Source of the DNA: an uncultured Lachnospiraceae bacterium
GTDB taxonomy: Bacteria > Bacillota > Clostridia > Lachnospirales > Lachnospiraceae
Direction: 5' to 3'
NCBI GenBank assembly: GCA_947165025.1
Contig: CAMUYQ010000001.1
Location: forward strand, 372,001-436,000
DNA length: 64,000 nucleotides
A program made the position numbers and the translations under genes. The notes below the pieces were generated by a model. The model saw only the letters and a program-made list of their open reading frames with translations, made no database searches and had not been told where the DNA came from. Below are positions 28,256 through 49,568 of the stretch, piece after piece (the stretch's first letter is position 1; every line of letters begins with the position of its first letter).

Positions 28256-28273
28256 ATACTAAATTCCTCCGGT

Positions 28274-30016: not shown

Positions 30017-30060
30017 GGAACATTCTCCAATTATTCGCAGAAATCTTTACACCGCTCTCA

Positions 30061-32427
30061 TTATGACGGTAAATGCTTACTTTCAATATGTACGCGCACC
30101 AGAACAAATTCCGTTCCGATAAGTGCATCCTCAAGTGTAAAACGAACCGTTCCGTCATCATCAACGACTGCGGCCATCTCCTGATAAGATGAGCCCTTGT
30201 CCCTGTACATGACATAAATGTTGTCTCCCTTTTGGGCTCCGGTCTCCTTCCACAGATATGTGCGTACCAGCCCGTCAAATTCCTCGGGAGGCTCTGTGTA
30301 TATGGCAGCAACTATTTCCGAGTCATACCTCTCGCCGAACTTGTCAAGACTAATTGACTTGGCCGAATTCATAAGATCATCTATATCCTTGATCTTCTCT
30401 ATGGGGATCACTTCTCCATTTGTTGTGGTAAGAATTCCTTCTGCAAGGGTTACGTCCGATGCCGAAAGCTTCCTGTCAAAATAATCCCTGACTGATGCCA
30501 CGGCTCCATATGAATGAAGAGACGGTAGGTCATTGGCATTTCGCAGTTTGTCATAGGATACCGATACTGCCGCCAGGTTTTCCATAGTCTGTTTGGTAAC
30601 AGTGTAGTTCGGCTCTGTAAATGACCTCTTATCGTTATAGAAGTGCTCATCCACAATGTCGGTTGTAGCCTTGTAGTTCTTGTCCTTTTCAAACACTCCC
30701 ACATAGGTTACACTCTTATCGACTACCGTTGCTTTTTTACTCTTGTATAAAATCGTACCGCCATCTTCCTTCCAACCTACAAAGTTCCAGCCTCTGTTTG
30801 GATAAGCCGTGATGTCCACTTTTCCTGCCGTAGCTGCCTTCTTGCGTACATGGCCGCCGCTTGCAGGTTCTGCCACAACCCTTAGGCCCTTCGCGTCCTG
30901 ATCGGAACTCTCACTTACAAAAATTGCCGTGTAGGTCCTATCCTCCGACAGCCCCGAAATTCCGATCTCCTTACTGTTAAACACATTACCTACACTGTCC
31001 TCCCAGTTCAGGAATTTGTATCCCGTTGCCGGAATTGCAACGAGTGTGAATGACGGCTCATTGCTCGGATTATATTCATATGTTCCCGATGATACTGCCT
31101 CCTCGCTGTTATATTTAACCTTGCCGCCATCTTTCGGAGATGCCTGTACGGTAACATTCACCTTTGAAGTACTTTTATACTTGGCGGTTATAGTGATATC
31201 CTGGTAAACATCTTTGAGAGTCAGTGTATAACCTCCGGCACCGTTGTCAGTTCCCGAGACCCTTGTGCCATCTTGAGTTACAAAGCAGTCGAATTTATAT
31301 CCATTAGCCGGTATTGCGGTAATTACCACAGTATTGCCGGAAGTGATCTCCGCCTGTCCGGATAGTTGGGCTCCCACATATTCTCCTGTACTTTTATCCT
31401 TTTCCTGAATGGTCGACCTTCCTCCCGAAGGTGGATCGTTAACTACTTTTACCGTATATGCACCCTTTGGTTTGAAAAAAGCAAAACACCAAGTGACAAA
31501 GACAGTATCTGTTTCTTGTGTTTGATAGATGGTTACTGAACTTGAGCTCGCATTATAATCTCTGATAAATCTCTTAAATGATTCTCCATCGTTTAACGCC
31601 ATATCTATAATACGCCAGTGATCGAATTCATATCCCTGACTTGGTACTGCATTAATTACAGTAGCATATCTGTCACCTCCTATATAACCTCCGCTTACAG
31701 TTCCCTTTGACTCTTCGCCCGGGGCAACATACACAAATATTCGATGAAATGCCTCCCCAATGTAATTCCCGGTAGGCTTCGGAAGCTGATTATATGCTTG
31801 TTCTGCGTTACCTTTTGTAATAGGTTGGTTCGGGAGCGAATTTGTAGCAGGTGCACCAAGTAGCCCGGGTGCTCGAAGTGACGATGTCATGGAAAGCAGA
31901 CTTTGCTCTTGCGAAAGCCCGGAATCCGAATCCGCAAATACCGCCACAAGATTTATATCCCCGGTTATATCCGTTATAGAAACCGACTCATTATCTCCGA
32001 GCTCTGTTGCCTCTTCTCCGTTTACCATCCAATGGTCAAGTACATAGCCCTCAGCCGATGTTGCCGTTGCAGTAACCGTCTGTCTGCCGTCCGTATATCC
32101 GGTCTCATATTTCACCGTTCCGAATGAATCATCATTTGACGATACATTCACAGAGTATGAGGTTATCTCATCCGCCTGATAAATAACTTCTTCCTCTCCG
32201 GCATAATACATCGGAATCTCCACACTCGATTCCACCTCTATGGACTGTTCGTATTTCGCGGTGTTCCCCTTGCCCTGCGCCTTCCCGTCTGCAAAAGAAA
32301 CAGAGCCGCATGATGCAAGCGACCCTGTCATGATCAACAGGCAAAGCAAGACCGCAATCACTGATGTGACCTTTTGTGCCCTGTTCTTCATTGTATTATT
32401 TCCCTTAGTATTCCCCTTCAATGACAT
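30061..32427 (-). CDS. Surface lipoprotein with InlB-B-like repeats
   Basis: This is a 788-residue secreted protein. A signal peptide ends LASC (Cys 42 in this version). The body holds at least five beta repeats recognisable by a GYxFDHW-type motif: GYVLDHWMVNGEE, GYEFDHWRI, GYKFDCFV, GYKFLNWED and GWNFVGWKEDGG. Such modules (InlB B-repeat or bacterial repeat domain) are found in surface adhesins. The C-terminal 200 residues are a separate domain without a name I recognise. An ATG 12 codons downstream (32391) would give a more typical signal peptide. It is the first gene of a likely operon with the cysteine-peptidase-like lipoprotein and two DUF3592 proteins. Confidence 0.75.
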   Translation of the reverse strand: MSLKGNTKGNNTMKNRAQKVTSVIAVLLCLLIMTGSLASCGSVSFADGKAQGKGNTAKYEQSIEVESSVEIPMYYAGEEEVIYQADEITSYSVNVSSNDDSFGTVKYETGYTDGRQTVTATATSAEGYVLDHWMVNGEEATELGDNESVSITDITGDINLVAVFADSDSGLSQEQSLLSMTSSLRAPGLLGAPATNSLPNQPITKGNAEQAYNQLPKPTGNYIGEAFHRIFVYVAPGEESKGTVSGGYIGGDRYATVINAVPSQGYEFDHWRIIDMALNDGESFKRFIRDYNASSSSVTIYQTQETDTVFVTWCFAFFKPKGAYTVKVVNDPPSGGRSTIQEKDKSTGEYVGAQLSGQAEITSGNTVVITAIPANGYKFDCFVTQDGTRVSGTDNGAGGYTLTLKDVYQDITITAKYKSTSKVNVTVQASPKDGGKVKYNSEEAVSSGTYEYNPSNEPSFTLVAIPATGYKFLNWEDSVGNVFNSKEIGISGLSEDRTYTAIFVSESSDQDAKGLRVVAEPASGGHVRKKAATAGKVDITAYPNRGWNFVGWKEDGGTILYKSKKATVVDKSVTYVGVFEKDKNYKATTDIVDEHFYNDKRSFTEPNYTVTKQTMENLAAVSVSYDKLRNANDLPSLHSYGAVASVRDYFDRKLSASDVTLAEGILTTTNGEVIPIEKIKDIDDLMNSAKSISLDKFGERYDSEIVAAIYTEPPEEFDGLVRTYLWKETGAQKGDNIYVMYRDKGSSYQEMAAVVDDDGTVRFTLEDALIGTEFVLVRVHIESKHLPS

Positions 32428-32572
32428 TCTAATCCTTTACCCAAGACTGGATAATCTTTATTTGATCCTATAACAACGATCGTGATACAACGATTATCTT
32501 ACAATAGTTTATCTTTTCTGTAACTAATTATTTACTTAATCCACGTCTTTTCCCGAAAACATTTTTCAACTA

Positions 32573-35161
32573 TCAATCAATTAATCCATCTTCAAGTTCC
32601 TGCCTCCTTACCATTTTGTAGAACAAACCTTTTTTCGCCATCAGCTCCTTGTATGAGCCTATCTCCTCAATCCTGCCTTCATTAAATACATATATCCTGT
32701 CACAGTTCATAACTGTTGTCATCCTGTGGGCGATCATTACCCTTGTCATATTTCTGTGTGCCATATTCTCGCACACCTTCTGCTGGGTAATATTGTCAAG
32801 GGCGCTTGTGGCCTCGTCAAGATACAGTATTACCGGGTCATTTGCCAGTGCCCTGGCAATAAGTATCCTTTGCTGCTGCCCACCCGATACTGTTCCGCCT
32901 CCCTCTGAGATTGTTGTAAACATTCCCATGGGCATCCTGTCAATATCATCGGCAAGTCCTACCTCTTCCAGGAGCGGTTCCACATCCGACGGCTGCAGGT
33001 GCGGCGCCGAGAGCGTGATATTGGTGTATATATTACCAACCACCATTTTGCCGTCCTGCAATACAACGCCCATCTGTCGCCTCATTTCGGTCTTCTCAAG
33101 TGAGTCTATATCTCTGCTGTCATAAAAAATATTCCCCGAGGTAGGTGACGCAAATCCGAGCAAGAGCTTTAGGAGGGTTGATTTTCCGCATCCGGATGGC
33201 CCCACAATGCCGATGTATTCACCGGGACTGATATGCATATTGATATCAGTCAGTACGTCAGGCTCGTTTTCCTCATATCTGAAGGTTACATGATCTACGG
33301 ATATCTCACCTTTAAGTGCCTTGGAAGTAGGGGACAGATCGGCAACCTCGGCGGATTCCGAGAATATTGGTCTGATACGATCCATAACGGGTATAAGACC
33401 CGCTACCGAAATAAAGAATGATACCAGCTGGGATACCGCAGACGTGAACATGCCGTATACACTTGTAAAAGCTGTATATTCACCTATTGTCAATGTCTGC
33501 TTCTTCTTGACTACCGTATAATATATTATCCCCGTATACGCAACTGACATAAGAGATGAAAAGACGTTTCCCATGTTTGATATTCTGGTGGATCTCATAT
33601 CGTAGCGCATGGAGGCCACGTTCGCCTTCTGGAATTCGTACAGGCTTCTGTCCTCAAGGCCTGATACCTTGACCTTGAGTATTCCGGACAGGAACTGATA
33701 CAGCAGCCCGTTTGCCTTGGTGCTAGTCTCAATACGGGCTCTTTCCTTGGAAACGCGAAGATACCCGAAGGCAAACATGATAATCCCCGACAGAATAGCC
33801 ATTATCAGCCCCCGCCATGCAAGTGTCTTGCTCTTGTCAAACATCCTGTACAGGTAGAACAGGGACAATATGAACCCGAGGGTTGCCGTCACACCGCTCG
33901 TTACTGTCTGCGTAAATACCCCTGAAACGGAGCTTACACGGTTGACCAGTTCTATAGTTCCGAACTTTTCGATAAACTGCTGCGGAAGCTTGAATATTCT
34001 GTCAAAAGTCGCCCCTACAATGGTATATTCCATTGTCTTGACCCCGCGGAAATTTGCCAGGTTCTTCACAAGGTTAAAGAACATATTGCCTACCATGATA
34101 ATGAATATCACTAAACCAATCTGGATAATCGGGTCAAATACCCCCAAAGGGATCAGTTCGTCATAAAGTTTCTCGTTAAGATATGGCATAGCCAGTCCGA
34201 TAAGGATCGACAGGATGTACATTGCAACAAACAGTATCACATCACGCAGTCTAACCGTCCTAAGTCCGTAGAGCAGCACATCTTTAAGCGACAGCTTTCC
34301 GTCCGGAAGATGCCTGTATATCACGTATGCATTTTGTGAAAGTGATGCTGCCTCCTCTTCCTCTACTACCTTCTCGGACTTGTTCTCCACATCATACATC
34401 ATGTATGTACGGTGGTTCTTCGGAATCAGTAGAACAGGTTTATTATCGTCGGCCGTAAAAGCGATAAATGCACCCGCATCCTTTTTGTACCACTTCTTTT
34501 CCAGGGTGACTGGTCGTATTACGAAATGAGACAGCCGCGCTATGTCCTCTATTGTGTAATCCTCCCCCCTGACTGCCACCAGTCTCTGATGGGCAACAAG
34601 AGGAATATTCATATAGTCACACAGCACGCTTACTGTATTATACAGCGGAGAGTCCGATGAGAATTCATACTTAAGCACACGCTTGTTTTTAAAGAGGGAT
34701 TCCATCAGATCATGATTTGAGCTTATATCCTTCTTCTTCTGCTCGCGCATTCTGTGTATGCCTGCAGTCTCGCTCTGCATGACGGCAATATACCATCTGG
34801 CAAACCTTTTCTGGTAATCCTTCTCATCACTTTGGGGGAACCCTTCGATGCTGTCGGCAAATTCATTACCGAGTGCGGAATTTGCATCCTCCGACATGAA
34901 TCTCTTAAGTGTCACTTCACTCTTGGGTATTATAACAAAGTGCCACTTATTCTCAGACTCCGGAAGCAGGCATGCAAGTCCCGGAATGAGATCTCCTGCC
35001 TTAGCACTTCGAAGAAATAGAGACCTGTCCGGTACATCTCCTTCATTAAACTGCATATAGACATTGGCTTCACCCTCTGTTACCTCAAAGTATTCCTTCG
35101 AATCCGGTGTCATGAAGGACTCAGAGCCTTTTAGTTTTATCAGTCCGTAATCTTCCGCCAT
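32573..35161 (-). CDS. NHLM-type bacteriocin exporter, second ABC transporter (no peptidase)
   Basis: This 862-residue membrane protein has a long N-terminal soluble part (residues 1-300, including a cyclic-nucleotide-binding-like fold start SKEYFEVTEGEANVYMQF). Six membrane helices follow (about 305-560). The C-terminal ABC ATPase has GPSGCGKST, VSGGQQQR and VILYLDEATSALD. This is the layout of the NHLM bacteriocin system ABC2 proteins, which always accompany a peptidase-containing ABC partner. It follows that partner by 3 nt. It probably helps export the modified peptide, perhaps as a heterodimer with the peptidase transporter. Confidence 0.88.
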   Translation of the reverse strand: MAEDYGLIKLKGSESFMTPDSKEYFEVTEGEANVYMQFNEGDVPDRSLFLRSAKAGDLIPGLACLLPESENKWHFVIIPKSEVTLKRFMSEDANSALGNEFADSIEGFPQSDEKDYQKRFARWYIAVMQSETAGIHRMREQKKKDISSNHDLMESLFKNKRVLKYEFSSDSPLYNTVSVLCDYMNIPLVAHQRLVAVRGEDYTIEDIARLSHFVIRPVTLEKKWYKKDAGAFIAFTADDNKPVLLIPKNHRTYMMYDVENKSEKVVEEEEAASLSQNAYVIYRHLPDGKLSLKDVLLYGLRTVRLRDVILFVAMYILSILIGLAMPYLNEKLYDELIPLGVFDPIIQIGLVIFIIMVGNMFFNLVKNLANFRGVKTMEYTIVGATFDRIFKLPQQFIEKFGTIELVNRVSSVSGVFTQTVTSGVTATLGFILSLFYLYRMFDKSKTLAWRGLIMAILSGIIMFAFGYLRVSKERARIETSTKANGLLYQFLSGILKVKVSGLEDRSLYEFQKANVASMRYDMRSTRISNMGNVFSSLMSVAYTGIIYYTVVKKKQTLTIGEYTAFTSVYGMFTSAVSQLVSFFISVAGLIPVMDRIRPIFSESAEVADLSPTSKALKGEISVDHVTFRYEENEPDVLTDINMHISPGEYIGIVGPSGCGKSTLLKLLLGFASPTSGNIFYDSRDIDSLEKTEMRRQMGVVLQDGKMVVGNIYTNITLSAPHLQPSDVEPLLEEVGLADDIDRMPMGMFTTISEGGGTVSGGQQQRILIARALANDPVILYLDEATSALDNITQQKVCENMAHRNMTRVMIAHRMTTVMNCDRIYVFNEGRIEEIGSYKELMAKKGLFYKMVRRQELEDGLID

Positions 35162-35164
35162 TTC

Positions 35165-37399
35165 TTATACTGATTCCGATACAAGTTTTCTGTACAAACC
35201 CGGGTACGATATAAGCTGGTCATGTGTACCCCTCTCTTTTATCCTGCCGTGGTCCATTACTATGATCTCGTCACAGTCACGGATGGTTGACAGACGCTGC
35301 GCAACCACAATGCATGTGCAGTGCCGTCTCTTGATATTATCAAGTATCTCTTTCTCTGTAGTAGAATCAAGCGATGATGTGGCCTCATCAAGTATCAGAA
35401 CCGTTGGGTTGACAGCCAGTGCCTTGGCAATCTCAATTCTCTGTCTCTGACCGCCGGAAATGTTAGAGCCGTTCTCCCGAAGGACATAGCCGTATCCTCC
35501 GCTCTTCTGTACGATTTCATCATGGATGCATGCATCCTTGGCGGCAGCTATTACCTGTTCCTGTGTCAGCCCGGCATTCCACCCGCTTATATTCTCATAT
35601 ATACTTCCCTCAAACAGTGATATCTGCTGGGTTACAACCGCTATTGAGCTTGTAACCACTTCTGCGGTAATATTCTCAATCTCTGTTCCGTCAAACAGAA
35701 TACTTCCACCCCATGGCTCGTACAGTCCGCTAAGCATTTTCGATATGGTTGATTTGCCGCATCCGCTTGAACCTACGAGGGCTATAGACTGTCCCGGAGT
35801 GGCTTTTAGGTCAAAACCCTTAACAAGAGGATTCTCAAGCTTGTTGTATCCGAAGGAAATATTTTCCATGATTACTTCACCCCTAAGCTTCCTTCCCTCC
35901 ATATCCTCATCCTTGACCGTGATATAACGATTTTCCTCCTTGTAGTTCATTATGTCATCAACGCGCATCATATCATTTTTGACCTGCTGGATAGAGCGGA
36001 CAAAACTTACAATATTATCAAAGGGCGATGAAAATGCAGACACGAATCCGTTAAAGCACATAAGCATACCCGGAGTCATATCCCCGTTTATCACTTCCAT
36101 GCTTCCGAATATCAGCATAACAACGGTATTTACATACCCCATGGTCTGAGGAATAACATCAAGCATGGACTGCATTCTGCCCAGCTTCTGGTCATTATTG
36201 TTGACCTCGGAATAATATCCCATAATCCTTCCGACATATTCACCCTCGGCTCCGACTGCCTTGAGGCTTGCCGATGAAGCGATGCCGTTATAGAGAACAC
36301 CCTGAAGCTTTCCGCTATCCATCCCGAACTTCATAGTCATTGTCTTGATCTTCGATGATGTCCGTATGGCTATTACAATGGAAATCGCTGCTGATAAAAC
36401 CGCGATCAGTGACAGTCGGGGAGAGTATCCGATCATCAGGATCAGATAAATAATACCGGTTACGGAGCTTATGAGGACAGTTATCAGACTGCCGGATAAA
36501 AACGTTGCAACCGCCATGTTGTTGTACACTCTGGAGACAAGATCGCCCGCATATCTTTGTTCATAAAAAACCATTGGAAGTCGCAGCATATGGGCAATCA
36601 TTGTATCGGTGGATATAAGACTTGTTTTGACGCGAAGTAGCAGAGCTACTTTGGAATTAAGCCAGTTAAAATACGCCGAAAACAGAGCTGTTGAAATCAT
36701 GAACAGTAACAGCCACTTCACCCATGTAAGATCACGCTTTACGAGTATGTCATCAAGAAATACCTGTGAGAATACAGGCGTCAAAATACCCGGAAGTATT
36801 AAAGCAACACCTATCAGGAACAGTGCTAAAAGTGTGCTTCCCTGTCCCTCGAGCCGCTTTCTCATAAAATTAAAGAGGGTTCTCTTCTTTCTGGACTTGA
36901 CAAATCTTTTTGTAGGCTTGAACTGAAGAACCGTCCCCGAATATCCTTCATCAAGCTCTTCATATGTAAGCTTACGTCTTCCCTGCTGGGGATCGTTGAT
37001 ATAGTACTTTCCGTACTTCTTGCCTTCGAATACGACAAAATGGGAGAAATTCCAGTGCAGGATGCAGGGTGGAGGATTCTTGGCGAGCATACGGTCCAGA
37101 TCCCTGCGGCTGGCCGTCACCTCGAGATTGTATTTTTCTGCTGCATAGTATATGTTCTTGGCGTTACAGCCGTTTCTGGATACGCCGGTTTCCACACGGA
37201 GTTCTTCAAGAGGCACGTATCTCCCGTAATACTGGAGTATCATTGAAAGGGATGCTGCTCCGCATTCATTAACCTCCATCTGGTATACGGTGGGAGTCTT
37301 GACGTACTCTATGCGCACCTTCCTCTTCTTCTCTTTTTTGCTCTCCTTGTGATATCTGCGCGTGATCTCTTCGGAGGAAGCATGCTTAGGTTGTTTCAT
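35165..37399 (-). CDS. Peptidase-containing ABC exporter (C39, NHLM type)
   Basis: This 744-residue transporter both cleaves the Gly-Gly leader and exports the product. The N-terminal C39 domain has QMEVNECGAASLSMILQYYG, with the catalytic Cys, then HWNFSHFVVFEG with His and YINDPQQG with Asp. Six membrane helices follow (about 185-460). The ATPase domain has GSSGCGKST, ISGGQRQR and LILDEATSSLD. The start was set at the ATG at 37399 because GAGGAAG lies ahead of it. It overlaps the adaptor gene by 14 nt. The precursor in this cluster ends its leader in Gly-Gly, the expected substrate. Confidence 0.92.
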   Translation of the reverse strand: MKQPKHASSEEITRRYHKESKKEKKRKVRIEYVKTPTVYQMEVNECGAASLSMILQYYGRYVPLEELRVETGVSRNGCNAKNIYYAAEKYNLEVTASRRDLDRMLAKNPPPCILHWNFSHFVVFEGKKYGKYYINDPQQGRRKLTYEELDEGYSGTVLQFKPTKRFVKSRKKRTLFNFMRKRLEGQGSTLLALFLIGVALILPGILTPVFSQVFLDDILVKRDLTWVKWLLLFMISTALFSAYFNWLNSKVALLLRVKTSLISTDTMIAHMLRLPMVFYEQRYAGDLVSRVYNNMAVATFLSGSLITVLISSVTGIIYLILMIGYSPRLSLIAVLSAAISIVIAIRTSSKIKTMTMKFGMDSGKLQGVLYNGIASSASLKAVGAEGEYVGRIMGYYSEVNNNDQKLGRMQSMLDVIPQTMGYVNTVVMLIFGSMEVINGDMTPGMLMCFNGFVSAFSSPFDNIVSFVRSIQQVKNDMMRVDDIMNYKEENRYITVKDEDMEGRKLRGEVIMENISFGYNKLENPLVKGFDLKATPGQSIALVGSSGCGKSTISKMLSGLYEPWGGSILFDGTEIENITAEVVTSSIAVVTQQISLFEGSIYENISGWNAGLTQEQVIAAAKDACIHDEIVQKSGGYGYVLRENGSNISGGQRQRIEIAKALAVNPTVLILDEATSSLDSTTEKEILDNIKRRHCTCIVVAQRLSTIRDCDEIIVMDHGRIKERGTHDQLISYPGLYRKLVSESV

Positions 37400-39092
37400 C
37401 TTCTTCCTCGACAAAATCAAGCTTGTTTTTCAAATACGGAATCAATAATTCTATGGGCTTCTTGTTCTCTGTAATGATAGTGGCGGACACAAGCGTACCT
37501 GTGGAAAGCTTGATATCTTTTCCCTTTTTGGTGCTCCATGTATATCCGCTTGCAGTCATGGGATCACGCTCCAGGCGGCATCTGACCTCCACAACCGATC
37601 CTTCCTTCTCTATATCCCTTATTACTTCATCACTTGCGATCTGCATTCTAAGATCTTCTTCAGATGCAACGTGACTGCTGATAGAATCAACAACACCCTC
37701 TATATGCCCGTACTCCTGCTTATCAACCGTAGAAGGATAAATGTATGCCTTCATTCCCAGCTGGAGCTTGAATGCGTCAGCAAGCTTTACATAGCATATA
37801 GCCTGATCGTTGGTCAGATCTCCTGACAGAAGGGAGGCAACCTTTCCGCCTGTGCTTATGGCCTGACCTTCTGAAATTGCAACATCATATACTTTACCGT
37901 CCACGGTAGATTTGATCTCGCCCTTTGCAGCTTTGTTGAGAAGTTCCTCCCTTTGAGCCTTAAGGTCGATAAGCACCGCGGATTTCTCATTATTAAACTG
38001 CTGCTCATAGTTCTCCGCATCGAGCTCTCCCTCGCCCTCTGCAAGAACGCTCTTAAGCTCCAGTTCATCTATCTCGTCCTTTAATGACTTGTAAGCCGCT
38101 TTGGCATTATAGTAATCCTGCAAAACTTCGGAATACTCGGTTGAAGCAATGGTATTTTGAGCCGTTGTGGCGGACAGTCCGTTCACGTATTCAAGGTATG
38201 ATTTTCTGGCTGCGTCAAGGCTGGTGTTTGCAGACCTTACATTCTCTTCTTCTCTCTCCATAAATACTCTTGCATCATTGGCGGCCGCTTCCTTGGCTTC
38301 AAGATCTGCAAGACCTGCATCGTATGCGTTTCTCTCCTCTTCGGTATGCTCAAGGGCGTCGAAGTTGTAGTACCTGGCATCAAAAGCCTCCTGGGCCGAA
38401 TAATAAGCTTCCTGAAGTGATATATAGTTATTCTTGGCACTCTCGTATCTGGAGTAATATGTTTCGTAATCGGTATTGGCTTCGTTATATTTAAGCTGTG
38501 GCTCCTGATCTGTAATACTTAATGTAGCAAAAAACTGCTGCTTGTATGCAAGCATCTGTGCTTCCTTCTCCTCGGCAACCGCCTTAGCCTCGGGAAGTTT
38601 TTCCTTCTTGAGCTCAAGTTCTGCCTTGGCACTTATGGCATCCTTATCAGCATTTTGGGCCGACAGCTTAATCTGAGCCATATTTTCAGTATCCGTTGTC
38701 ACCACATCCATTTCGGAATCAAAGGTCATATTCTCAACGTACTGGATTCTTGTATCAAGCTGCTTTATCTTGAATATATCCTCTTCATCCCCTATGGTTG
38801 CTACCACATCTCCGGCATGAACAAAATCCTCGTCATTTATGTTTACAGAGACAACAAACCCTTCGGTCTGCGAATAAATATAACCCGCTCCCTCTGCATT
38901 AAGATATATTCCGTTTGTATCAACCTTGGTGGGAAGCGATCCGAAATTACCCCAGATCAGCAGTCCAAATATAATAGCAAAAGCACCGATAATAGAGATC
39001 CACGCCGCAGGTGAAACAAGGATGATCATACGATCAAGCTTGTCCTGTGCAGCAACTCTATTCAGTGCTTCTTTGTTATATGCGCCCTTCAA
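37386..39092 (-). CDS. HlyD-type secretion adaptor of the NHLM exporter
   Basis: This is a 568-residue membrane fusion protein. It has a short cytoplasmic tail, one membrane helix (about 28-52) and a lipoyl half near GYIYSQTEGFVVSVNIND. A very long, Ala- and Glu-rich coiled coil occupies residues about 120-400, then the second lipoyl half (GEIKSTVDGKVYDVAISEGQ) and a beta-barrel domain. The coiled coil is longer than in typical adaptors. The start is a TTG with AAGGGG upstream. In Gram-positive NHLM systems such adaptors help the ABC exporters pass the cell wall. Confidence 0.88.
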   Translation of the reverse strand: MKGAYNKEALNRVAAQDKLDRMIILVSPAAWISIIGAFAIIFGLLIWGNFGSLPTKVDTNGIYLNAEGAGYIYSQTEGFVVSVNINDEDFVHAGDVVATIGDEEDIFKIKQLDTRIQYVENMTFDSEMDVVTTDTENMAQIKLSAQNADKDAISAKAELELKKEKLPEAKAVAEEKEAQMLAYKQQFFATLSITDQEPQLKYNEANTDYETYYSRYESAKNNYISLQEAYYSAQEAFDARYYNFDALEHTEEERNAYDAGLADLEAKEAAANDARVFMEREEENVRSANTSLDAARKSYLEYVNGLSATTAQNTIASTEYSEVLQDYYNAKAAYKSLKDEIDELELKSVLAEGEGELDAENYEQQFNNEKSAVLIDLKAQREELLNKAAKGEIKSTVDGKVYDVAISEGQAISTGGKVASLLSGDLTNDQAICYVKLADAFKLQLGMKAYIYPSTVDKQEYGHIEGVVDSISSHVASEEDLRMQIASDEVIRDIEKEGSVVEVRCRLERDPMTASGYTWSTKKGKDIKLSTGTLVSATIITENKKPIELLIPYLKNKLDFVEEEDETT

Positions 39093-39121
39093 TTATATTC
39101 CCCTTATTATCCCCTAAACTT

Positions 39122-39493
39122 CTACTCGCCGAACTTTTCCTTGAGCTTCATCTCAGTCGGTACAATCATAGCTATTGTCATCGTTACAGTCTGCACAAGG
39201 ATAACAACGAGCATTGCCAGAAGCTCACCCCAGTGTACAGACACTGTTAACAGTGCATAGAAAACTATGCTTACCGGAAGAGATACGATTCCATAGATAA
39301 ACGTATTCTTACCGCTATATACATTGGCAAAATCCCAGGCCTCCTGACTTGCCTTGGAACGCCTGGTTCTGTAGCCTGCAGTGTTATTAATCTCTTTGGG
39401 AGGTCTCGTTTTCATGATATAACCGGTAATAATCGTAACAACGGGAATAATTATCACACAAACCACAAACATTATATTAAGCCCCATTAACAT
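39122..39493 (-). CDS. SdpI-like membrane protein, putative immunity protein
   Basis: This is a 123-residue protein with three or four membrane helices. Between the first and second helix it carries NNTAGYRTRRSKASQEAWDF followed by ANVYSGK. This is the conserved loop of the SdpI domain (pattern GYRT-[KR]-S-x2-[SN]-x-E-x-W-x2-A-N). SdpI in Bacillus subtilis confers immunity to the secreted toxin SDP. Here it is the first gene after the RiPP precursor and its terminator and the first of the export operon, with its own promoter. Producer immunity is a natural inference but is not proven. Confidence 0.72.
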   Translation of the reverse strand: MLMGLNIMFVVCVIIIPVVTIITGYIMKTRPPKEINNTAGYRTRRSKASQEAWDFANVYSGKNTFIYGIVSLPVSIVFYALLTVSVHWGELLAMLVVILVQTVTMTIAMIVPTEMKLKEKFGE

Positions 39494-39583
39494 ATTTCGC
39501 CTCCGTTATCTTCGATTGAAATCCACAACTAAATAAATACATAAAAAGCCGTCAAGGCACTATATTGTGTCCCGCTCAAAAGA

Positions 39584-39613
39584 ATAATACCATATGATGT
39601 GCTTCATTGTAAA
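39584..39613 (-). promoter_or_regulatory. Promoter of the immunity/export operon
   Basis: TTTACA (39608-39613), 18 bp and TATTAT (39584-39589) on the minus strand, about 90 bp upstream of the SdpI-like start. Confidence 0.65.
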
Positions 39614-39664
39614 GATTCTCTATGATACAAATTCAAAGTGACGCTTTATTACTTCAGTTGAAAT

Positions 39665-39725
39665 AAAAAAAGCGCAGACACCCAGAACCGATCCTGCGAT
39701 CAGTCCTGTCTTTAGTCTGCGCTTT
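39665..39725 (-). terminator. Terminator after the RiPP precursor gene
   Basis: On the minus strand, AAAGCGCAGAC and GTCTGCGCTTT form a perfect 11-bp stem around a 35-nt inner region and are followed by a run of six T. The large loop is unusual. It separates the precursor and maturation genes from the export genes. Confidence 0.75.
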
Positions 39726-39789
39726 TGTTCACTATTGCGTCATCTCATACTGATGTCGGTACGTATAATCATCAAGTATGAATCATCTA

Positions 39790-40461
39790 TCATTTTTTCC
39801 CCGACTTCGCAAAATCATTTGCAGTAGCCTGCGTGGCAAAGGCAACCGATGAAAGCACTCCCAAAGCTTCAATCACGATTACTCCTATAGCAGCGGCAAG
39901 AGCCGCTTCAAGTGCAACTGCCACATCAATGGCAAGAAGGACAAATACTTCGGCTTCCGTTACGGCTGTCGTGGTGGTAGCTATTGACTGAGCCTCAAAC
40001 AGGAACAGGATGGCAAATATGATACATCCGCCGTTTACCATCTCAAGCTCTTCCGGTGAAAGGTTTTCGGGACTGCGCGGTATGGGAATGTAGTATACAT
40101 CTTCCGTGTTCTGATATATTTCCCATTTCCAACCCTCAAGCAGGATCTGTTTGGATTCGTCGTCCGCAAGGTCCTCCACGCTCTTGTTAATTCTGTCTGT
40201 CATAGCCTTAACAGCTGCCTTGGTATTCTCATACGGCAGAACCTGAATGATAGTCTTGGGCGGAGTGTCGAGAACACGGTATTCCTTGTCATCATTGTAT
40301 TCCAGCCCGTATTTATCAAATACCTTCTTGGGATCGGCGATAAACTCCTTCTTGAAATCCTCTGATTCCCAACACTGCGAGAATACCTCACCAAGCTTGG
40401 TCGCCTGATCTCCCAGATAGTCCTTCAGTTCTTCCTTGGACACATTCTTCTTATCTTCCAT
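39790..40461 (-). CDS. Proteusin-like RiPP precursor with NHLP leader and hydrophobic core
   Basis: The 145-residue leader resembles nitrile hydratase alpha subunit: FSQCWESEDFKKEFIADPKK, FDKYGLEYNDDKEYRVL and TPPKTIIQVLPYENT. It ends in NLSPEELEMVNGG, the Gly-Gly site cut by C39 peptidases. The 78-residue core starts CIIFAILFLFEAQS and is almost entirely Ala, Val, Ile, Leu and Thr, with one Cys at position 1 and a polar tail ending KSGKK. NHLP leaders of this kind direct peptides to proteusin-type maturation. Two radical SAM genes lie directly upstream, with no gap to the nearest one. The precursor is long for the class. The mature product is unknown. Confidence 0.88.
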   Translation of the reverse strand: MEDKKNVSKEELKDYLGDQATKLGEVFSQCWESEDFKKEFIADPKKVFDKYGLEYNDDKEYRVLDTPPKTIIQVLPYENTKAAVKAMTDRINKSVEDLADDESKQILLEGWKWEIYQNTEDVYYIPIPRSPENLSPEELEMVNGGCIIFAILFLFEAQSIATTTTAVTEAEVFVLLAIDVAVALEAALAAAIGVIVIEALGVLSSVAFATQATANDFAKSGKK

Positions 40462-41835
40462 TTAACCCTCCTTTACAGATAAAATGCCCTTTTTCCACAG
40501 CCTGTTTATCATAAAGAACAGATATTGGGACTGAATAGCCGGAACTTTCGTATCATTTACAATTTCAGTCACAATCTCACGTCTAGTATAGCACCCCTGT
40601 TTTGCCAGTTCAAACACTTTCTTCACGAGCGCTTCGCCGTTCTTTTCGCGTATCACAAGGGCTGAGCCGCGATCGCTCTCCACATACAGATCATCTTCCT
40701 TTTGTACTACATTAAGATACGGCGGAGCATATATGATATCATCCGGCTCCAGAGTTACTTTCATATTCTCCTTTATCATCCGTCCGATCTTATCAAAGAG
40801 ATCCTCTGCATCGGTAAACTCTTCCTTCGCCAGTATGATCATTCCCTCCGGGTGCTCATCATCGGCCCACGTTGGCGTTGTGAGTGTTACTGTCCTCGTG
40901 CACATATTGATAAGAAATCCCGAAACACATGATATGGTCCCGCTTATTGCCTCCTTGCCGGTTCTTCCTTCGTTTCTTCCGACATCGGCAAAATGATTTC
41001 CCGGAGCCTCATCATACTGTGGCAGAAGTTCCACCAGCGCAAGCTCCTCCGGTGTAAAGGCTTCACATATCTGTTTGAACATATCCTGCGAGAGAATCGA
41101 AAAACGGTAGATAAACCTGCCGTCCTCATTAAGTTCCTTAATAAGCGGCTTAAGTCTTTCAATATTCCTGGTGGATACTGCCGTCGTTATCTGCGGGAGA
41201 TTATCGAATTCCTTAAAGTAATCATCCTTAAAATGCTCGTAATCGGGATTATCAAGAGGCTCCGTTCCAAAATACAGTGTCCCCTCACCCGCAGCGCTTC
41301 CAAACATTTCCTTTGCCCGGGCAAGTATATCCTTCCAAAGCGCGGCATTTTCATCGGTATATCTGAACAGTCCGCGAAGAGGTCCGGCGTTAAGGCCGCA
41401 GAATTCGCATCCCACTGAGCATCCGTTTGCAAGTTCAAACGTCAAAGGCGTATGGATGATCATCATATTCTGGGGCCCGAGATCCAGAAGACACCTATCC
41501 ATCTGCCGCTGTCTCCAATTTTGAAACTTTGGTTCCGAAGGAGTACAGTCGTCCCTGGTCTTTGCTACGGTCCTGATCTTCCTATTTACAAAATCGGCAT
41601 ACAGTTTCCCCTTTGATTCGGGGTAAACAGCCACAAGACGCATCGGATCATCAGGATCCGTATGCGAAAGTGCTACATCTTCCGGTGTAAGGGGAAAGCC
41701 GTACTTATCAAGTGTGCCCTTCGGATCCTTTTTAAGTTCTTCCTCGAATCCGGGGATCATAGTTATATATTCCAGTACTCTCTTGACCCAACCTATCGCT
41801 TCCCTGTCATCATCATACACATCTTTTCCTGCCAT
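40462..41835 (-). CDS. Radical SAM protein A, PoyD-like RiPP epimerase
   Basis: This is a radical SAM enzyme of about 457 residues. The iron-sulfur motif CSVGCEFC (Cys 142, 146 and 149 counting from the GTG at 41844) follows FELANG. The pattern CxxxCxxC with LNAGPL next to it is typical of PoyD-type peptide epimerases, which convert L- to D-residues in proteusins. Residues 32-60 (GFEEELKKDPKGTLDKYG) look like part of an NHLP leader. The C-terminal region has SGTISCVSGFLINM and then TTPTWADDEHPEG, with Thr where paralogue B has Cys. The ATG at 41835 with GGGAG upstream is preferred. The gene directly precedes the precursor gene. Confidence 0.8.
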   Translation of the reverse strand: MAGKDVYDDDREAIGWVKRVLEYITMIPGFEEELKKDPKGTLDKYGFPLTPEDVALSHTDPDDPMRLVAVYPESKGKLYADFVNRKIRTVAKTRDDCTPSEPKFQNWRQRQMDRCLLDLGPQNMMIIHTPLTFELANGCSVGCEFCGLNAGPLRGLFRYTDENAALWKDILARAKEMFGSAAGEGTLYFGTEPLDNPDYEHFKDDYFKEFDNLPQITTAVSTRNIERLKPLIKELNEDGRFIYRFSILSQDMFKQICEAFTPEELALVELLPQYDEAPGNHFADVGRNEGRTGKEAISGTISCVSGFLINMCTRTVTLTTPTWADDEHPEGMIILAKEEFTDAEDLFDKIGRMIKENMKVTLEPDDIIYAPPYLNVVQKEDDLYVESDRGSALVIREKNGEALVKKVFELAKQGCYTRREIVTEIVNDTKVPAIQSQYLFFMINRLWKKGILSVKEG

Positions 41836-41852
41836 GGTATCCACTCCCTGTC

Positions 41853-43316
41853 TTATGCCTGTATGCTTCCGAAAAGTCTGCTGTCATATATATATCCCTG
41901 TTTCCAGAACTGATTGAGCATCCAGAATACATTTTCAGGATTCGCATCATATTCGCCGGTAACAATACGAACTATTTCATGCTTGTTCCAGGTACCGTCC
42001 TGCAGAAGTTCGATCACCCGCTTCGCATACGGCCTTGACAGCTTGTCGAGCGCAAATATCATGCCCCCGAACCTGCTTTGCAGCGAGTCACCGTACATCG
42101 TTTCACAGCGTTCAAGATAAGGATACAGCCGCAATGGCTCTTCATCCGGAATGTCCGTTATCATGTATTCTTCAATTATCTCTTCCATGATCTTTGCACA
42201 TTCATCCGCACTTTCAAAATATCTCTTCACCGGCTCGGCAACACCGTTCGGGAACTTATCGGTCATATGGCATGGCGTGATGAGCCTGATACTCTTTTCG
42301 GCCATGTTTATCACGAAACCGTCCGCGCAGCATATGGTTCCGGGATCACCCTCCCTTACATCTTCTTCCTTAACGTGTTTTGCCTGGCCGCCTACAACGG
42401 TAAAGGGCACAAATGTCGGTGCTTCGGGAAACATGGGGAGGAGTTCCACGCGAAGCAGTTCCATGGGAGTAAACTTTGCGAATATCTTCTCCGCCATTTC
42501 AACCGATCTTAAAGTAAACCTGTGGATGAATCCGGCACTGGAATAAAGCTTGTGTACGAGCCTGCGAGTCCTCTCGATATCCCTGTCGGCAACCGCTGTG
42601 GTTATCTGCGGTATGAACCGGAACTCTTTGACAAAATCCTCTTCGAACAGTTCGTAATCGGGATTATCAAGCGGCTCTGTCGCAAGATAGAGCGTTCCGA
42701 ACCCTGCCGCATCTCCTATTATCCTGTGCGCATCGGCCAGAATCTGTCTGAACATTGCGGCATTTTCTTCGGTATAACGGCATATCTTCTGCAGTTTCGG
42801 AGCTCCCAGCCCGCAGAAATCACAGCCTACTGAGCATCCCAGATCCAGCTCGATCGCAAGGGGACAGTGAACGAATGCCTTGTTGACTCCTCCGACTCCG
42901 GCAAGACACCTGTTCATCTGCCTCTCGCGCCATTTGATCATGCGGGGGTTTGAAGGTTTGCAATACTTATCGATCATCATGTCTCTTGCTGCGAATTTGT
43001 TGGCAAGAAACTGCCTGAATCGAAATGCCGCTTCGGGAAGAAGATCGATGGCATCGGGATCCTCGTCCAGCCTTTTACGCTCCTGCGCATACTCATCATT
43101 AACGAGGAATTTCATTTCCTCGGGATCGACATCAAGATGATGTTTTGCAAGGAATGCTTCTGAATCTTCGTTAAACTCATCCCTTACATAGGGAAGTGTT
43201 GCGTACATCTCAAGGAAACGCTTTGTATCCGCAACAAGCCTGTTTATCCGCTCCAGATCCTCCGGCGTCATCTGATCGTTCATCAGCCTCCGGGATCTTA
43301 AATCTTTTTCCATCAT
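41853..43316 (-). CDS. Radical SAM protein B, PoyD-like RiPP epimerase
   Basis: This is a 487-residue paralogue of radical SAM protein A. The cluster-binding motif CSVGCDFC is at residues 161-168, preceded by VHCPLAIELDLG. A leader-like N-terminal segment (PYVRDEFNEDSEAFLAKHHL) is present. The C-terminal region reads GTICCADGFVINM and then LITPCHMTDKFPNG, keeping a Cys at residue 349. Members of this family install D-amino acids, with a Cys acting as hydrogen donor in characterised examples. The open frame extends to a TTG at 43379, but the ATG at 43316 with AGAGG upstream is preferred. It is probably the first enzyme gene of the RiPP operon. Confidence 0.8.
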   Translation of the reverse strand: MMEKDLRSRRLMNDQMTPEDLERINRLVADTKRFLEMYATLPYVRDEFNEDSEAFLAKHHLDVDPEEMKFLVNDEYAQERKRLDEDPDAIDLLPEAAFRFRQFLANKFAARDMMIDKYCKPSNPRMIKWRERQMNRCLAGVGGVNKAFVHCPLAIELDLGCSVGCDFCGLGAPKLQKICRYTEENAAMFRQILADAHRIIGDAAGFGTLYLATEPLDNPDYELFEEDFVKEFRFIPQITTAVADRDIERTRRLVHKLYSSAGFIHRFTLRSVEMAEKIFAKFTPMELLRVELLPMFPEAPTFVPFTVVGGQAKHVKEEDVREGDPGTICCADGFVINMAEKSIRLITPCHMTDKFPNGVAEPVKRYFESADECAKIMEEIIEEYMITDIPDEEPLRLYPYLERCETMYGDSLQSRFGGMIFALDKLSRPYAKRVIELLQDGTWNKHEIVRIVTGEYDANPENVFWMLNQFWKQGYIYDSRLFGSIQA

Positions 43317-43366
43317 ATCTGCTGCCTCTTTACAAGTTCGAAGATAAAATATTCTATCACAGTTTC

Positions 43367-43537
43367 TTACCGTGGGCAATCTCCCAGCCGCTCTCCCGGT
43401 GGGTTTCTCTCAGAGTCTCTTCCCAAGGCATTCCGGATGAATTCATCGATCAGTTCCCCGATAAGTTCCCCCGCCGCCAGGTTTGTTGTCGTAATCTTTT
43501 TAGGCTCTTCCTTTTTTAGATTCAGGTAAATATTCAT
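43367..43537 (-). CDS. Possible small protein, 56 aa, at the head of the RiPP operon
   Basis: This short open frame starts at an ATG with GGGGAAG about 5 nt upstream and ends 50 nt before the radical SAM B start. It encodes a polar N-terminus (NIYLNLKKEEPKKITTTN), an amphipathic helix (LAAGELIGELIDEFIRNALG) and a basic, Pro-rich tail. I do not recognise a family. Position between a putative promoter and the maturation enzymes suggests it belongs to the cluster, perhaps as an accessory or second precursor. Expression is unproven. Confidence 0.45.
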   Translation of the reverse strand: MNIYLNLKKEEPKKITTTNLAAGELIGELIDEFIRNALGRDSERNPPGERLGDCPR

Positions 43538-43549
43538 AAGGCTTCCCCA

Positions 43550-43578
43550 AATATATGTAATACGATGTTGATCCTCAA
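43550..43578 (-). promoter_or_regulatory. Candidate promoter of the RiPP operon
   Basis: TTGAGG (43573-43578), 17 bp and TATATT (43550-43555) on the minus strand, directly downstream of the cobalamin operon terminator. The -35 is imperfect. Confidence 0.45.
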
Positions 43579-43581
43579 AAG

Positions 43582-43625
43582 AAAAAACGCATTTTTCAAC
43601 GAAATTCAATCCATTGAAAAACACG
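43582..43625 (-). terminator. Terminator of the cobalamin operon
   Basis: On the minus strand, CGTGTTTTTCAA and TTGAAAAATGCG form a 12-bp stem with two wobbles around a 14-nt loop, followed by six T. It separates the cobalamin genes from the RiPP cluster. Confidence 0.75.
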
Positions 43626-43654
43626 CTTCCATCGCTATTTCCTATTTCGGCAGA

Positions 43655-44122
43655 TTAAATGATTTCCTTAACCGCAGGTGTATCATCTGTCTTCCAGTTG
43701 AGCGGATTGATCGTATATGCTTTCGTACCCTTTGGTGTTATGAACGTCTCAGTCACATCAGGGGCTTCGCAGTCGATACTTATCACCACGCCCGTATCCG
43801 TTTCGGATTCGGCCGGATTTATCTGCGGATATTTATCAACCATCTCTTTTGTGCACGGCCAGCCGATCGCATATACAGCGACAAGCCTGTCCTGCATTTT
43901 CTCATCTTCGAAGTAATCTTCAAGAAGTCGGTAGCACAGATCCGCATCCTTCCCTTCGCCTTCGCCGAAGTATGCCCAGTTCCCTTTGTCAGAATAATCA
44001 ACACTGCTTTTATTCCTGTCAGGCATATTGATATTTACCGTGACATTCGCGCATCCACCGGTCATCAGGGTCACAAGCACAAGCATGACCATAGACAGGG
44101 TAAGTGTTCTTATTCTTCTCAT
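43655..44122 (-). CDS. Small lipoprotein, 155 aa
   Basis: This is a secreted lipoprotein with signal peptide and lipobox ending MTGGC (Cys 24), followed by ANVTVNINMPDRN. The mature part is short, acidic and without a recognised domain. It includes WAYFGEGEGKDADLCYRLLE and a GWPCTKEMVDKYPQI segment. The residues after the lipid-anchored Cys closely match those of the cysteine-peptidase-like lipoprotein at 28-30 kb. It is the last gene before the terminator, 18 nt after a dehydrogenase gene, so it is probably co-transcribed with the cobalamin genes. Function is unknown. Confidence 0.7.
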   Translation of the reverse strand: MRRIRTLTLSMVMLVLVTLMTGGCANVTVNINMPDRNKSSVDYSDKGNWAYFGEGEGKDADLCYRLLEDYFEDEKMQDRLVAVYAIGWPCTKEMVDKYPQINPAESETDTGVVISIDCEAPDVTETFITPKGTKAYTINPLNWKTDDTPAVKEII

Positions 44123-44140
44123 ATAAGTCTTCCTTTCGTA

Positions 44141-45199
44141 TCAGAATATCTCTTCCATCCGTGCGTATATCTCTTTGAGCCTTGAAGTGCTCAGATCGGT
44201 CTCATTCAAGATCGAATATCTGTCGGGCCGGCTTGCCGAAGCGCCCTGCCATGCCGCAACAAATATATCCTCGGTAACTCCGTTGAGCGACGGCTTCACC
44301 GGAATATTGTAACGTTTTATTATGTCCGCGATCATGTCCGCATCCCTCTCCTGGAAGATGCATGCGGGATAGCTTCCCATTGCCGTTGCGATACCGTGTG
44401 CCACAACAGTCTGGTCGGAATGATTTTCTTCGAGGGCGTGACAGAACAGATGCTCAGATCCGCTGCTGGGCCGCGAACATCCGGCGATCTCCATTGCAAG
44501 TCCTCCCATGACGAGAGCGTTTGTAAGTCTCTGTATAAAATCGGAACTCTTGAGTTCTTCGTCTTTGCAGTTAAGTATGCTGTCGCATGCAACATGCGAG
44601 ATCATGCATGCAAAATCGTCCACGGCCTCACCTGTCTTTTCGCCGGCAAGCTTCCAGTCATAGAGAGCCGTATACTTGGAGATCGTATCTCCTATCCCGG
44701 CAAGAAGCTGACGGTCGGGTGCACTCTTTACAACGTTTATATCTACGATTATTGCATCGGGTATCGTACATCTGAAGCTCCGTCTCGCCTTTCCTTCCGT
44801 CCCGAGCACCGCCACGGGTGATGCGAGCGAATCGTTTGAAAGGGTTGTAGGAAGCGATATGAGCTTTGTCTTTGATACGAACGCGGCAAACTTCGCAAGA
44901 TCAAGTACAGTTCCTCCGCCGAATCCCACGACAAGCGTGATATCATTCATCGCGATATACTTTGCAAGAGCTACCGCGGAATCATAATCCGTTTTCTGTA
45001 TCAGATACAGTTCGCTCTTCGGAAAATCTTTCTGTATCTCATCAAGTACTCCCCCGAAAATGCCCTTGAGATTCTCCTCGGTGACGACGATCGTCTTTGT
45101 CTTCTTAAGTTTCGGAAATACATCCTTCATGCAGCCGGGAATATCGGCAAATATCCCTTCCTCAACAATAAGATGATAAGGCAGTCTGAATCTGTTCAT
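44141..45199 (-). CDS. Iron-containing alcohol dehydrogenase / glycerol-1-phosphate dehydrogenase-like protein
   Basis: This 352-residue NAD(P)-dependent dehydrogenase has the dehydroquinate-synthase-like fold. Visible features are the nucleotide-binding GFGGGTVLDLAKF (near residue 95), the substrate region LPTTLSNDSLASPVAV, the metal-binding AGIGDTISKYTALYDW, then SGSEHLFCHALEE and VAHGIATAMGSYPA with His ligands. The closest family I recall is the AraM/EgsA group of sn-glycerol-1-phosphate dehydrogenases. It overlaps the preceding Cys-rich gene by 4 nt, inside the cobalamin operon. A role in supplying the aminopropanol arm is conceivable but speculative. Confidence 0.8.
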   Translation of the reverse strand: MNRFRLPYHLIVEEGIFADIPGCMKDVFPKLKKTKTIVVTEENLKGIFGGVLDEIQKDFPKSELYLIQKTDYDSAVALAKYIAMNDITLVVGFGGGTVLDLAKFAAFVSKTKLISLPTTLSNDSLASPVAVLGTEGKARRSFRCTIPDAIIVDINVVKSAPDRQLLAGIGDTISKYTALYDWKLAGEKTGEAVDDFACMISHVACDSILNCKDEELKSSDFIQRLTNALVMGGLAMEIAGCSRPSSGSEHLFCHALEENHSDQTVVAHGIATAMGSYPACIFQERDADMIADIIKRYNIPVKPSLNGVTEDIFVAAWQGASASRPDRYSILNETDLSTSRLKEIYARMEEIF

Positions 45200-45453
45200 G
45201 ATGTTTGATCGCTCTCCTTCTTTGCTCTGAGTATCGCCATTATCTTATCATAGTTTTCGGCTTTGTGGGGAAATGTGCAGTTGATGCAGTTCTTTATCGA
45301 TCTGCCATCCTTCTCTATCATCGTATAGTTCCCGGGACAGACTCTGTCATAAAGCGGGCAGTAACAGAACAGACAGTTTATGTCACTGTCGCATTCATGG
45401 CACGGATAGTATTCGCATTCCTTATTTGCAAAAAACCTGCTCGAATTATCCAA
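45196..45453 (-). CDS. Cysteine-rich small domain protein of cobalamin operons
   Basis: This is an 85-residue soluble protein with ten Cys arranged in NKECEYYPCHECDSDINCLF, CYCPLYDRVCPG and IKNCINCTFPHK, probably binding metal or an iron-sulfur cluster. Proteins with this small domain often sit in anaerobic cobalamin operons, frequently next to or fused with CobD-like or CbiA-like genes, but the function is unknown. The start is a TTG that overlaps the end of cbiA by 8 nt, and the length matches relatives. Confidence 0.8.
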   Translation of the reverse strand: MDNSSRFFANKECEYYPCHECDSDINCLFCYCPLYDRVCPGNYTMIEKDGRSIKNCINCTFPHKAENYDKIMAILRAKKESDQTS

Positions 45454-48843: not shown

Positions 48844-49568
48844 ATGTCATAACCTCTCGGTGTGATGAGACGGCCGCCTTTTATCTTCGTTTGGGAGTTT
48901 CCGACAAACACCGTCGTTGTCATATCAACTTCACTTTGTGCCAGCTTTGAAAGTGTGCAGACATGTTTTTCACATCCTTCTCTTCCGATGTTTCTGACAA
49001 AACCGCAGACTCTGTCGGCCGGAAGTGTTTCCATCAGTATCTCACAGGCTCTCTTCAGATAGTCTGCCCTCTTATGGCTGGACGGGTTATAGAGTGCGAT
49101 ACAAAGATCAGCCTCTGCTGACAGCCTCAGTCTCTTTTCGATAAGCTCCCACGGTGTCAGAAGATCACTTAAGCTTATAACGCAAAAATCATGTGCGAGC
49201 GGTGCACCAAGCTCGGCAGCTCCGCTGAGTGCCGCAGTCACTCCGGGTATGATCTTAACGTCACTGAAGGCTTCACGTTCCGCGATCTCAAGAAGCGGTG
49301 ATGCCATACCGTATACTCCGGAATCTCCGCTGCATATAAGGGCAACGGTCTTTCCGGCCTTTGCAAGCTCTACACACTTTTCGCATCTTTCGATCTCGCC
49401 CCTCATCCCGTTCTCAAAGTATTCCTTATCCGGATAACGGTCCCTGACAAGATCGGTATACGCCCTGTATCCGGCGATAACATCACATGAAGCAAGTGCT
49501 TCATTCGCCGCTCTCGTCATCATCTTTTCATCACCGGGACCAATCCCGATCACATAAATCTTCCCCAT
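48840..49568 (-). CDS. cbiH: Cobalt-factor III / precorrin-3B C17-methyltransferase CbiH
   Basis: This is a 242-residue SAM-dependent tetrapyrrole methylase that methylates C17 and drives ring contraction in the anaerobic pathway. It begins GKIYVIGIGPGDEKMMTRAA and has DVIAGYRAYTDLVRD, LICSGDSGVYGMASPLLE and PGVTAALSGAAELGAPLAHD, all characteristic of CbiH/CobJ. Length is that of the single-domain form. It overlaps cbiG by 19 nt at its start. Confidence 0.95.
   Translation of the reverse strand: MGKIYVIGIGPGDEKMMTRAANEALASCDVIAGYRAYTDLVRDRYPDKEYFENGMRGEIERCEKCVELAKAGKTVALICSGDSGVYGMASPLLEIAEREAFSDVKIIPGVTAALSGAAELGAPLAHDFCVISLSDLLTPWELIEKRLRLSAEADLCIALYNPSSHKRADYLKRACEILMETLPADRVCGFVRNIGREGCEKHVCTLSKLAQSEVDMTTTVFVGNSQTKIKGGRLITPRGYDI

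Follow-up and report, generated by a model that had tools for sequence, protein, structure and literature searches.

A proteusin-type gene cluster with a retained pair of PoyD-type epimerases, a linked SdpI-family gene and a B-repeat protein in Lachnospiraceae

The pathways for polytheonamide and aeronamide combine an NHLP (nitrile-hydratase-like) leader with a radical S-adenosylmethionine (SAM) epimerase of the PoyD family, and the cyanobacterial proteusin systems of PlpD, OspD and AvpD likewise hold an NHLP precursor and a PoyD homologue. The Poy gene set reportedly also includes C- and N-methyltransferases together with other, related tailoring genes. According to one review, PoyD-type enzymes remove the alpha hydrogen, with a cysteine serving as hydrogen donor; PoyD itself introduces many epimerizations in a strict 1,3 pattern and stops epimerizing in vivo when this cysteine is absent, the cyanobacterial systems are each described with a single epimerase and limited epimerizations, and proteusin epimerases are reported to carry a C-terminal recognition element for ribosomally synthesized and post-translationally modified peptides (RiPPs) (PMC8326336). 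NHLP leaders were linked by Haft and others to a three-gene exporter (PMC2887384). Here we describe a minus-strand gene cluster from an uncultured Lachnospiraceae bacterium, contained in a stretch of 64,000 nucleotides called the window (contig CAMUYQ010000001.1, positions 372,001 to 436,000 of the forward strand; assembly GCA_947165025.1). The cluster rather probably belongs to the proteusin kind of RiPP clusters and would make an exported, epimerized, membrane-active peptide, with an SdpI homologue as immunity protein and a B-repeat protein as partner.

From the polytheonamide and aeronamide pathways this cluster differs in its two epimerase clades, NHLM export, SdpI homologue and B-repeat protein, and from the polytheonamide-type cytotoxic proteusins in the absence of C-/N-methyltransferases or related tailoring genes among 12 open reading frames (ORFs) scanned between 28274 and 45199, where no methyltransferase, hydroxylase or dehydratase was seen. 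A first-pass annotation of this DNA had described the cluster as free of methyltransferase, hydroxylase and LanM genes; among the 31 window ORFs covered by our Pfam scan, none looks like a further RiPP tailoring enzyme. Methyltransferase domains at 46855-49568 are part of a cobalamin gene group. Selenomonadaceae-type PoyD loci (e.g. L021, L033, L034) likewise contain an NHLP precursor, a PoyD homologue and, if the contig extends far enough, the NHLM exporter genes; they differ in having one full-length epimerase each (except L020), often several precursors, more polar cores, and no match to the C-terminal domain of the B-repeat protein. The core of the window precursor aligned with that of L031 better than 200 of 200 shuffles. 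An exported peptide with D residues from a radical SAM epimerase, as predicted here, is likewise the product of the epipeptide system (EpeX/EpeE).

Reading downward from 43316, the genes run in the order E1 and E2 (the two epimerases), precursor, terminator-like hairpin, SdpI, HlyD-like subunit, C39-peptidase ATP-binding cassette (C39-ABC) subunit, second ABC subunit and B-repeat protein (Table 1). All genes named by the first-pass annotation are present in the order it gave, with two boundaries revised: the cluster does not end at 32573 and extends to 30061 through the B-repeat gene, and an ATG at 43316 (by eye), instead of 43537, is the most likely start of the first epimerase. The gap between E1 and E2 is 8 bases, and the precursor ATG lies directly 3' of the E2 stop. 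Both radical SAM proteins exceed the curated NCBIfam cut-off for TIGR04517 (325 bits) and score best to the PoyD family, not to an unrelated one; E2 also matches NF038399, below cut-off. The NHLM exporter is complete, as had been proposed, with all three subunits over their cut-offs: HlyD (TIGR03794, 224.3 against 156.2 bits), C39-ABC (TIGR03796, 884.2 against 853.3) and second ABC (TIGR03797, 723.2 against 709.4). The SdpI-like gene reaches 52.9 bits for PF13630 (cut-off 28.2). The precursor matches TIGR03793 (NHLP) at 53.9 bits, only 3 bits above the cut-off of 50.9, and the same match is worth 40.0 bits, below cut-off, in a six-frame genome search. All 11 related precursors (those of the nine loci introduced below, plus L122 and L127) match TIGR03793 at E <=0.001 and share the Gly-Gly site, in line with the annotated leader, and median identity is 56% for leaders and 26% for cores (55 pairs each). 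The predicted leader model resembles nitrile hydratase alpha, with nitrile hydratase chains at the top of the structure list (Z to 7.3). Curated cut-offs, related precursors and leader model together support a proteusin precursor with PoyD-type epimerases and NHLM export; we infer that the product contains D-amino acids.

An alignment-based profile scan of genome contigs gave at least 593 stretches; the best 80 of at least 168 relatives yielded 78 loci, a set that is capped and biased to E2-like sequences. A protein-only scan of the contigs with E2 gave no confirmed relatives. PoyD matches are rare: with the window's own genome counted in every sample, they occur in 3 of 397 genomes at the level of the family, in 3 of 392 at that of the order (2 of them passing the cut-off) and in 7 of 398 at that of the phylum (3 passing it). 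Nine distinct loci contain E1, E2 and a similar precursor: the window, L008 (whose contig was also counted as L015), L010, L011, L012, L013, L014, L016 and L017. L010-L014 and L016 are labelled Lachnospiraceae, L012 additionally goat rumen, and L017 Candidatus Darwinimomas equi. Rumen or gut samples are the source of several relatives, and codes such as RUG are presumably also marks of rumen origin. Another locus type within the same family and genus (L009, L123, L126) has an NHLM exporter, a single PoyD homologue and a neighboring ORF of ~440-460 aa, which at L009 looks radical SAM-like by eye; the leader query found no precursor at these three loci.

The two epimerases of the nine loci derive from one old duplication that gave two well supported sister clades, as judged from sequence comparison. 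A quick tree of 111 rows recovered E1 and E2 each as a single clade (SH-aLRT 98 and 86; joint clade 91), and in a careful tree of 39 rows E1 (9 rows) had a support of 99/97, E2 (10 rows) 96/99 and the joint clade 98/94. In these trees the pair groups with Bacillota sequences, apart from the cyanobacterial rows. The gene order is E1-E2-precursor in seven loci, E2-E1-precursor in L014 and E1-SdpI-precursor-E2 in L013, and the retention of both enzymes despite these changes argues that each is needed. A CxxxCxxC motif is present in all 19 E1/E2 sequences and all 109 homologues (two L090 rows, duplicates of L088, excluded). A further conserved cysteine, Cys306 in E2 and Cys351 in E1 (numbered on the 508-aa ORF), is kept in 18/19 and 108/109, respectively, and is the likely equivalent of the hydrogen donor Cys372 of PoyD, in an alignment that did not include PoyD. 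Two adjacent cysteines occupy this position in 8/9 E1 and 0/10 E2; with 14 of the 109 homologues carrying the double cysteine, 8 of them E1, the feature is not exclusive to E1. A profile of five epimerases had no match among solved-structure sequences at E 0.1. An NHLP-leader-like segment in the epimerase N-termini was rejected as too weak (hhalign probability: both clades 76.8 over 36 columns, E2 75.7, E1 22.4), also with the sub-threshold NF038399 match of E2 taken into account.

A conventional proteusin pathway, in which the work is not divided and one enzyme epimerizes while its paralogue helps, binds the leader as a partner or is fading, is unlikely in our estimate, if well worth weighing. 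At L013 the E1 gene (L013:4079-5521) is encoded in full with an intact CxxxCxxC, yet Ser-Ala replaces Cys-Cys; a single read error is unlikely since two neighboring residues differ, and this protein would offer a natural test of the role of such an enzyme without the thiol. Multiple PoyD homologues have also arisen repeatedly, the L020 pair being mutual nearest rows and 21 of 78 loci holding two or more full-length copies (8 in the E1/E2 clade, counting L015, and 13 outside it). On the other side stand the cysteine conservation given above, with cluster cysteines in 19/19 and the conserved cysteine in 18/19, and the presence of both enzymes at 9/9 loci in spite of rearrangement. The same count of 21 loci led us to drop the possession of two PoyD homologues as a unique trait. 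The first-pass annotation had called this cluster unlike those it knew, which does not hold for the multiple copies and does hold for three traits that it had not seen or not used: an E1/E2 pair that is old and has been kept, the linkage to SdpI and the partnering B-repeat protein. A natural PoyD-type pair of single origin in nine orthologous settings makes the site choice of these enzymes directly testable.

The predicted cores of the 11 precursors have 54-96 residues, and 10 begin with cysteine (that of L017 with phenylalanine). Each opens with a hydrophobic stretch of 52-88 residues from residue 1 that is devoid of Lys and Arg, any such residues lying in the tail. In the window core the stretch contains six acidic residues, and three Lys lie in the 14-residue tail. 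All 11 cores were tested for alternation in three residue codings and at six Fourier angles. The alternation of large with small residues exceeds expectation, with 0 of 5000 shuffles as good for 11 cores and 1 of 5000 for 8 cores; the signal is weaker when coded by volume (99 and 34 of 5000) or by Val/Ile/Thr (34 and 98), and an initial test on 9 cores gave a Stouffer z of +2.2 at lag 2. Fourier power was elevated at 180 degrees (p 0.0017 and 0.045 in two codings), with p 0.18 and 0.035 at 120 degrees. This alternation would fit epimerization at every second residue, as reported for PoyD (PMC8326336), but is a statistical hint over related sequences. Motif alignment to 22 cores of other proteusins gives no more than a hint of a common core motif: the window and L127 cores beat 200 of 200 shuffles, those of L010, L011, L008 and L017 reach p 0.02-0.035, and the other five p 0.09-0.77. 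The core of L017:3005-3736 shows a regular Asn/Val/Ala alternation, which we take to be polytheonamide-like. An NHLP-like precursor with an Asn/Val/Ala-repeat core also occurs in Eremiobacterota (L071:11407-11925), just after two of that locus's three PoyD homologues.

These cores also bear on a further alternative, a helical bacteriocin resembling class II in which epimerization of the core is slight or lacking. TIGR03949 (class IIb bacteriocin) matches 2 of the 11 precursors (best 9.1e-6), the window precursor not being among the matches at E 0.01, and AlphaFold2 (AF2) models place helices in the core, but at a pLDDT below 50. Two PoyD-type enzymes lie beside the precursor at 9/9 loci, and the cores lack a 100-degree periodicity by Fourier analysis (p 0.43 and 0.33); we consider this alternative very improbable.

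SdpI is the immunity protein against SDP, and in the SDP system (SdpC toxin, SdpI immunity) an SdpI-family gene is likewise linked to a hydrophobic secreted peptide; precursor, export and maturation presumably differ from those considered here. Within the genus, 9 of 37 genomes have PoyD matches, 7 of them over cut-off, the match of G1111 being truncated by the contig (164 bits) and that of G1135 weak (18 bits). Setting G1135 aside leaves 8 genomes with a PoyD homologue, among which G1129 holds the different, single-PoyD locus L126 and seven hold this cluster type (G000, G1108, G1114, G1122, G1137, G1113, G1111). E1 and E2 share a contig in the first five of these, and the contigs of G1113 and G1111 break inside the cluster. 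SdpI is present in exactly these 7 of 37 genomes and in 0 of the 30 others, a coincidence expected in about 1 in 10 million random draws (1/C(37,7), a hand calculation that ignores descent). Its position varies: in the window, L014, L128 and L129 it neighbors the exporter genes, in L010 and L011 it follows the B-repeat gene, and in L013 it separates E1 from the precursor. An additional copy is present at a different place in G1137. Of the nine E1/E2 loci, 5 showed SdpI, and none was seen at L008, L012, L016 and L017. By homology and linkage the SdpI homologue is a candidate immunity protein, and would offer such a gene for a proteusin.

The B-repeat protein has InlB-type B-repeats (PF18998) in five stretches, a lipobox-like signal LASC (by eye), no other Pfam family and a C-terminal domain devoid of a Pfam match. 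A profile of this domain from six copies (window, L010, L011, L012, L014, L016) recovered the left-out L017 copy (E 9.2e-31) and no further ORF of >=40 aa in 97 sources. The domain occurs at 8/9 loci, including L016, where a protein of only 321 aa keeps it, and L013, where it lies on the same contig beyond the fetched part (G1137:C65:204-809); at the ninth, L008, the contig ends within the B-repeat gene, and a different contig of that genome carries a matching piece. Matches occur in 6 of the 397 sampled family genomes (strong in G000 and G241, a fragment with a stop in G023, ~20 bits in G104, G109 and G251) and in 7 of the 37 genomes of the genus (complete in five cluster genomes, at 27 bits in G1111, and as fragments in G1139, which has no PoyD), with no match in the cluster genome G1113. 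The link between B-repeat protein and cluster is strong but not perfect, and remnants of the domain exist apart from the cluster. We claim no fold for the domain, given that its AF2 model has a pLDDT of 65.5 and no PDB fold match at E 0.001. It adds a cluster-tied secreted domain with no Pfam name.

The constancy of this protein also bears on a non-killing role, in which the product would be a structural peptide of the cell surface or the extracellular space: the B-repeat protein would capture the hydrophobic, D-rich peptide for adhesion, coating or signaling, and SdpI would act as a sensor or other partner. It would be favored by the cluster-tied domain occurring at 8/9 loci (on another contig in the ninth) against 5/9 for SdpI. 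SdpI, however, tracks the cluster exactly in the genus, as expected of an immunity gene, and the B-repeat domain has no assigned function; we regard such a role as improbable.

In the reading that we prefer, of an epimerized membrane-active peptide, E1 and E2 would epimerize alpha carbons along the long hydrophobic core, each probably acting on separate positions or kinds of residue. Cleavage after Gly-Gly would fall to the C39 half of the NHLM exporter, and the exporter would release a peptide of 78 residues, with an N-terminal Cys, a ~64-residue hydrophobic stretch of mixed D/L form and a basic tail. The peptide would most likely insert into the membranes of competing bacteria, the SdpI-family protein would shield the producer, and the B-repeat surface lipoprotein would serve as a dedicated partner that might hold the peptide at the cell surface or present it there. 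Together with a gene that likely protects the producer and with the large surface protein, this points to a probable, uncharacterized kind of membrane-attacking peptide, and in rumen and gut relatives such peptides could shape competition. A proteusin as simple as this one (epimerases, exporter, SdpI) asks whether D residues alone render a hydrophobic peptide membrane-active. A more elaborate proposal, which we hold only tentatively and consider doubtful, is that rumen and gut Lachnospiraceae make a D/L-alternating, membrane-spanning peptide by epimerization alone, with two ancient paralogues sharing the work, B-repeat display or hand-over and an SdpI guard; such a peptide would parallel, in the gut, the channel peptides of sponge symbionts, minus the methylations. 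Rumen studies mention or count proteusin clusters. In the literature surveyed, which lay mostly outside subscription journals, no description of the E1/E2 pairing in gut bacteria was found, and one listing of 15 papers within it contained neither SdpI nor InlB B-repeats.

Table 1. Coordinates of cluster features within the window.
Feature	Position	Strand	Basis
E1, first PoyD-type radical SAM epimerase	41853..43316	-	ORF open to 43379 (508 aa); TIGR04517 378.2 bits
E2, second PoyD-type radical SAM epimerase	40462..41844	-	TIGR04517 415.0 bits
Proteusin precursor, 223 aa	39790..40461	-	TIGR03793
NHLP leader, 145 aa, C-terminal end EELEMVNGG	40027..40461	-	GG invariant, 11/11 precursors
Predicted core, 78 aa, N-terminal Cys	39793..40026	-	Hydrophobic residues 1-64
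Terminator-like hairpin and U run, precursor/SdpI gap	39655..39745	-	RNA fold
SdpI-family membrane protein, proposed immunity protein	39122..39493	-	PF13630; genus linkage
NHLM membrane-fusion (HlyD-like) subunit	37386..39092	-	TIGR03794
NHLM exporter with C39 peptidase	35165..37420	-	TIGR03796; PF03412
Second NHLM exporter subunit, no peptidase match	32573..35161	-	TIGR03797
B-repeat protein, 788 aa, putative cluster partner	30061..32427	-	PF18998; homologues at related loci
C-terminal domain of B-repeat protein	30070..30681	-	Profile matches tied to cluster type

The hairpin that separates precursor from SdpI has a folding energy of -38.1 kcal/mol (z -6.87), equaled by 0 of 200 shuffles, and is absent from the 4 sites of a simple terminator scan; it could allow an excess of precursor relative to exporter. 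That scan placed another terminator-like hairpin at 43583-43630, near an 85-aa ORF upstream of E1 (43367-43624) that has no NCBIfam or Pfam family match. No Rfam family exceeded threshold within 28000-46000. The cobalamin gene group lies upstream of the cluster, and DUF3592 proteins and ABC importer genes lie downstream. Directly after the B-repeat gene, a 580-aa lipoprotein (28274-30016) has Cys/His stretches that look papain-like by eye; it has no Pfam match, and its single match among solved-structure sequences (E 0.37) is not meaningful. Its signal region resembles, by eye, that of a small DUF3089-like lipoprotein (PF11288) just upstream of E1 at 43655-44122. Amid the cobalamin genes, a single ORF (58007-60331) combines an ABC ATPase with a CobQ-like part (CbiA and GATase_3).
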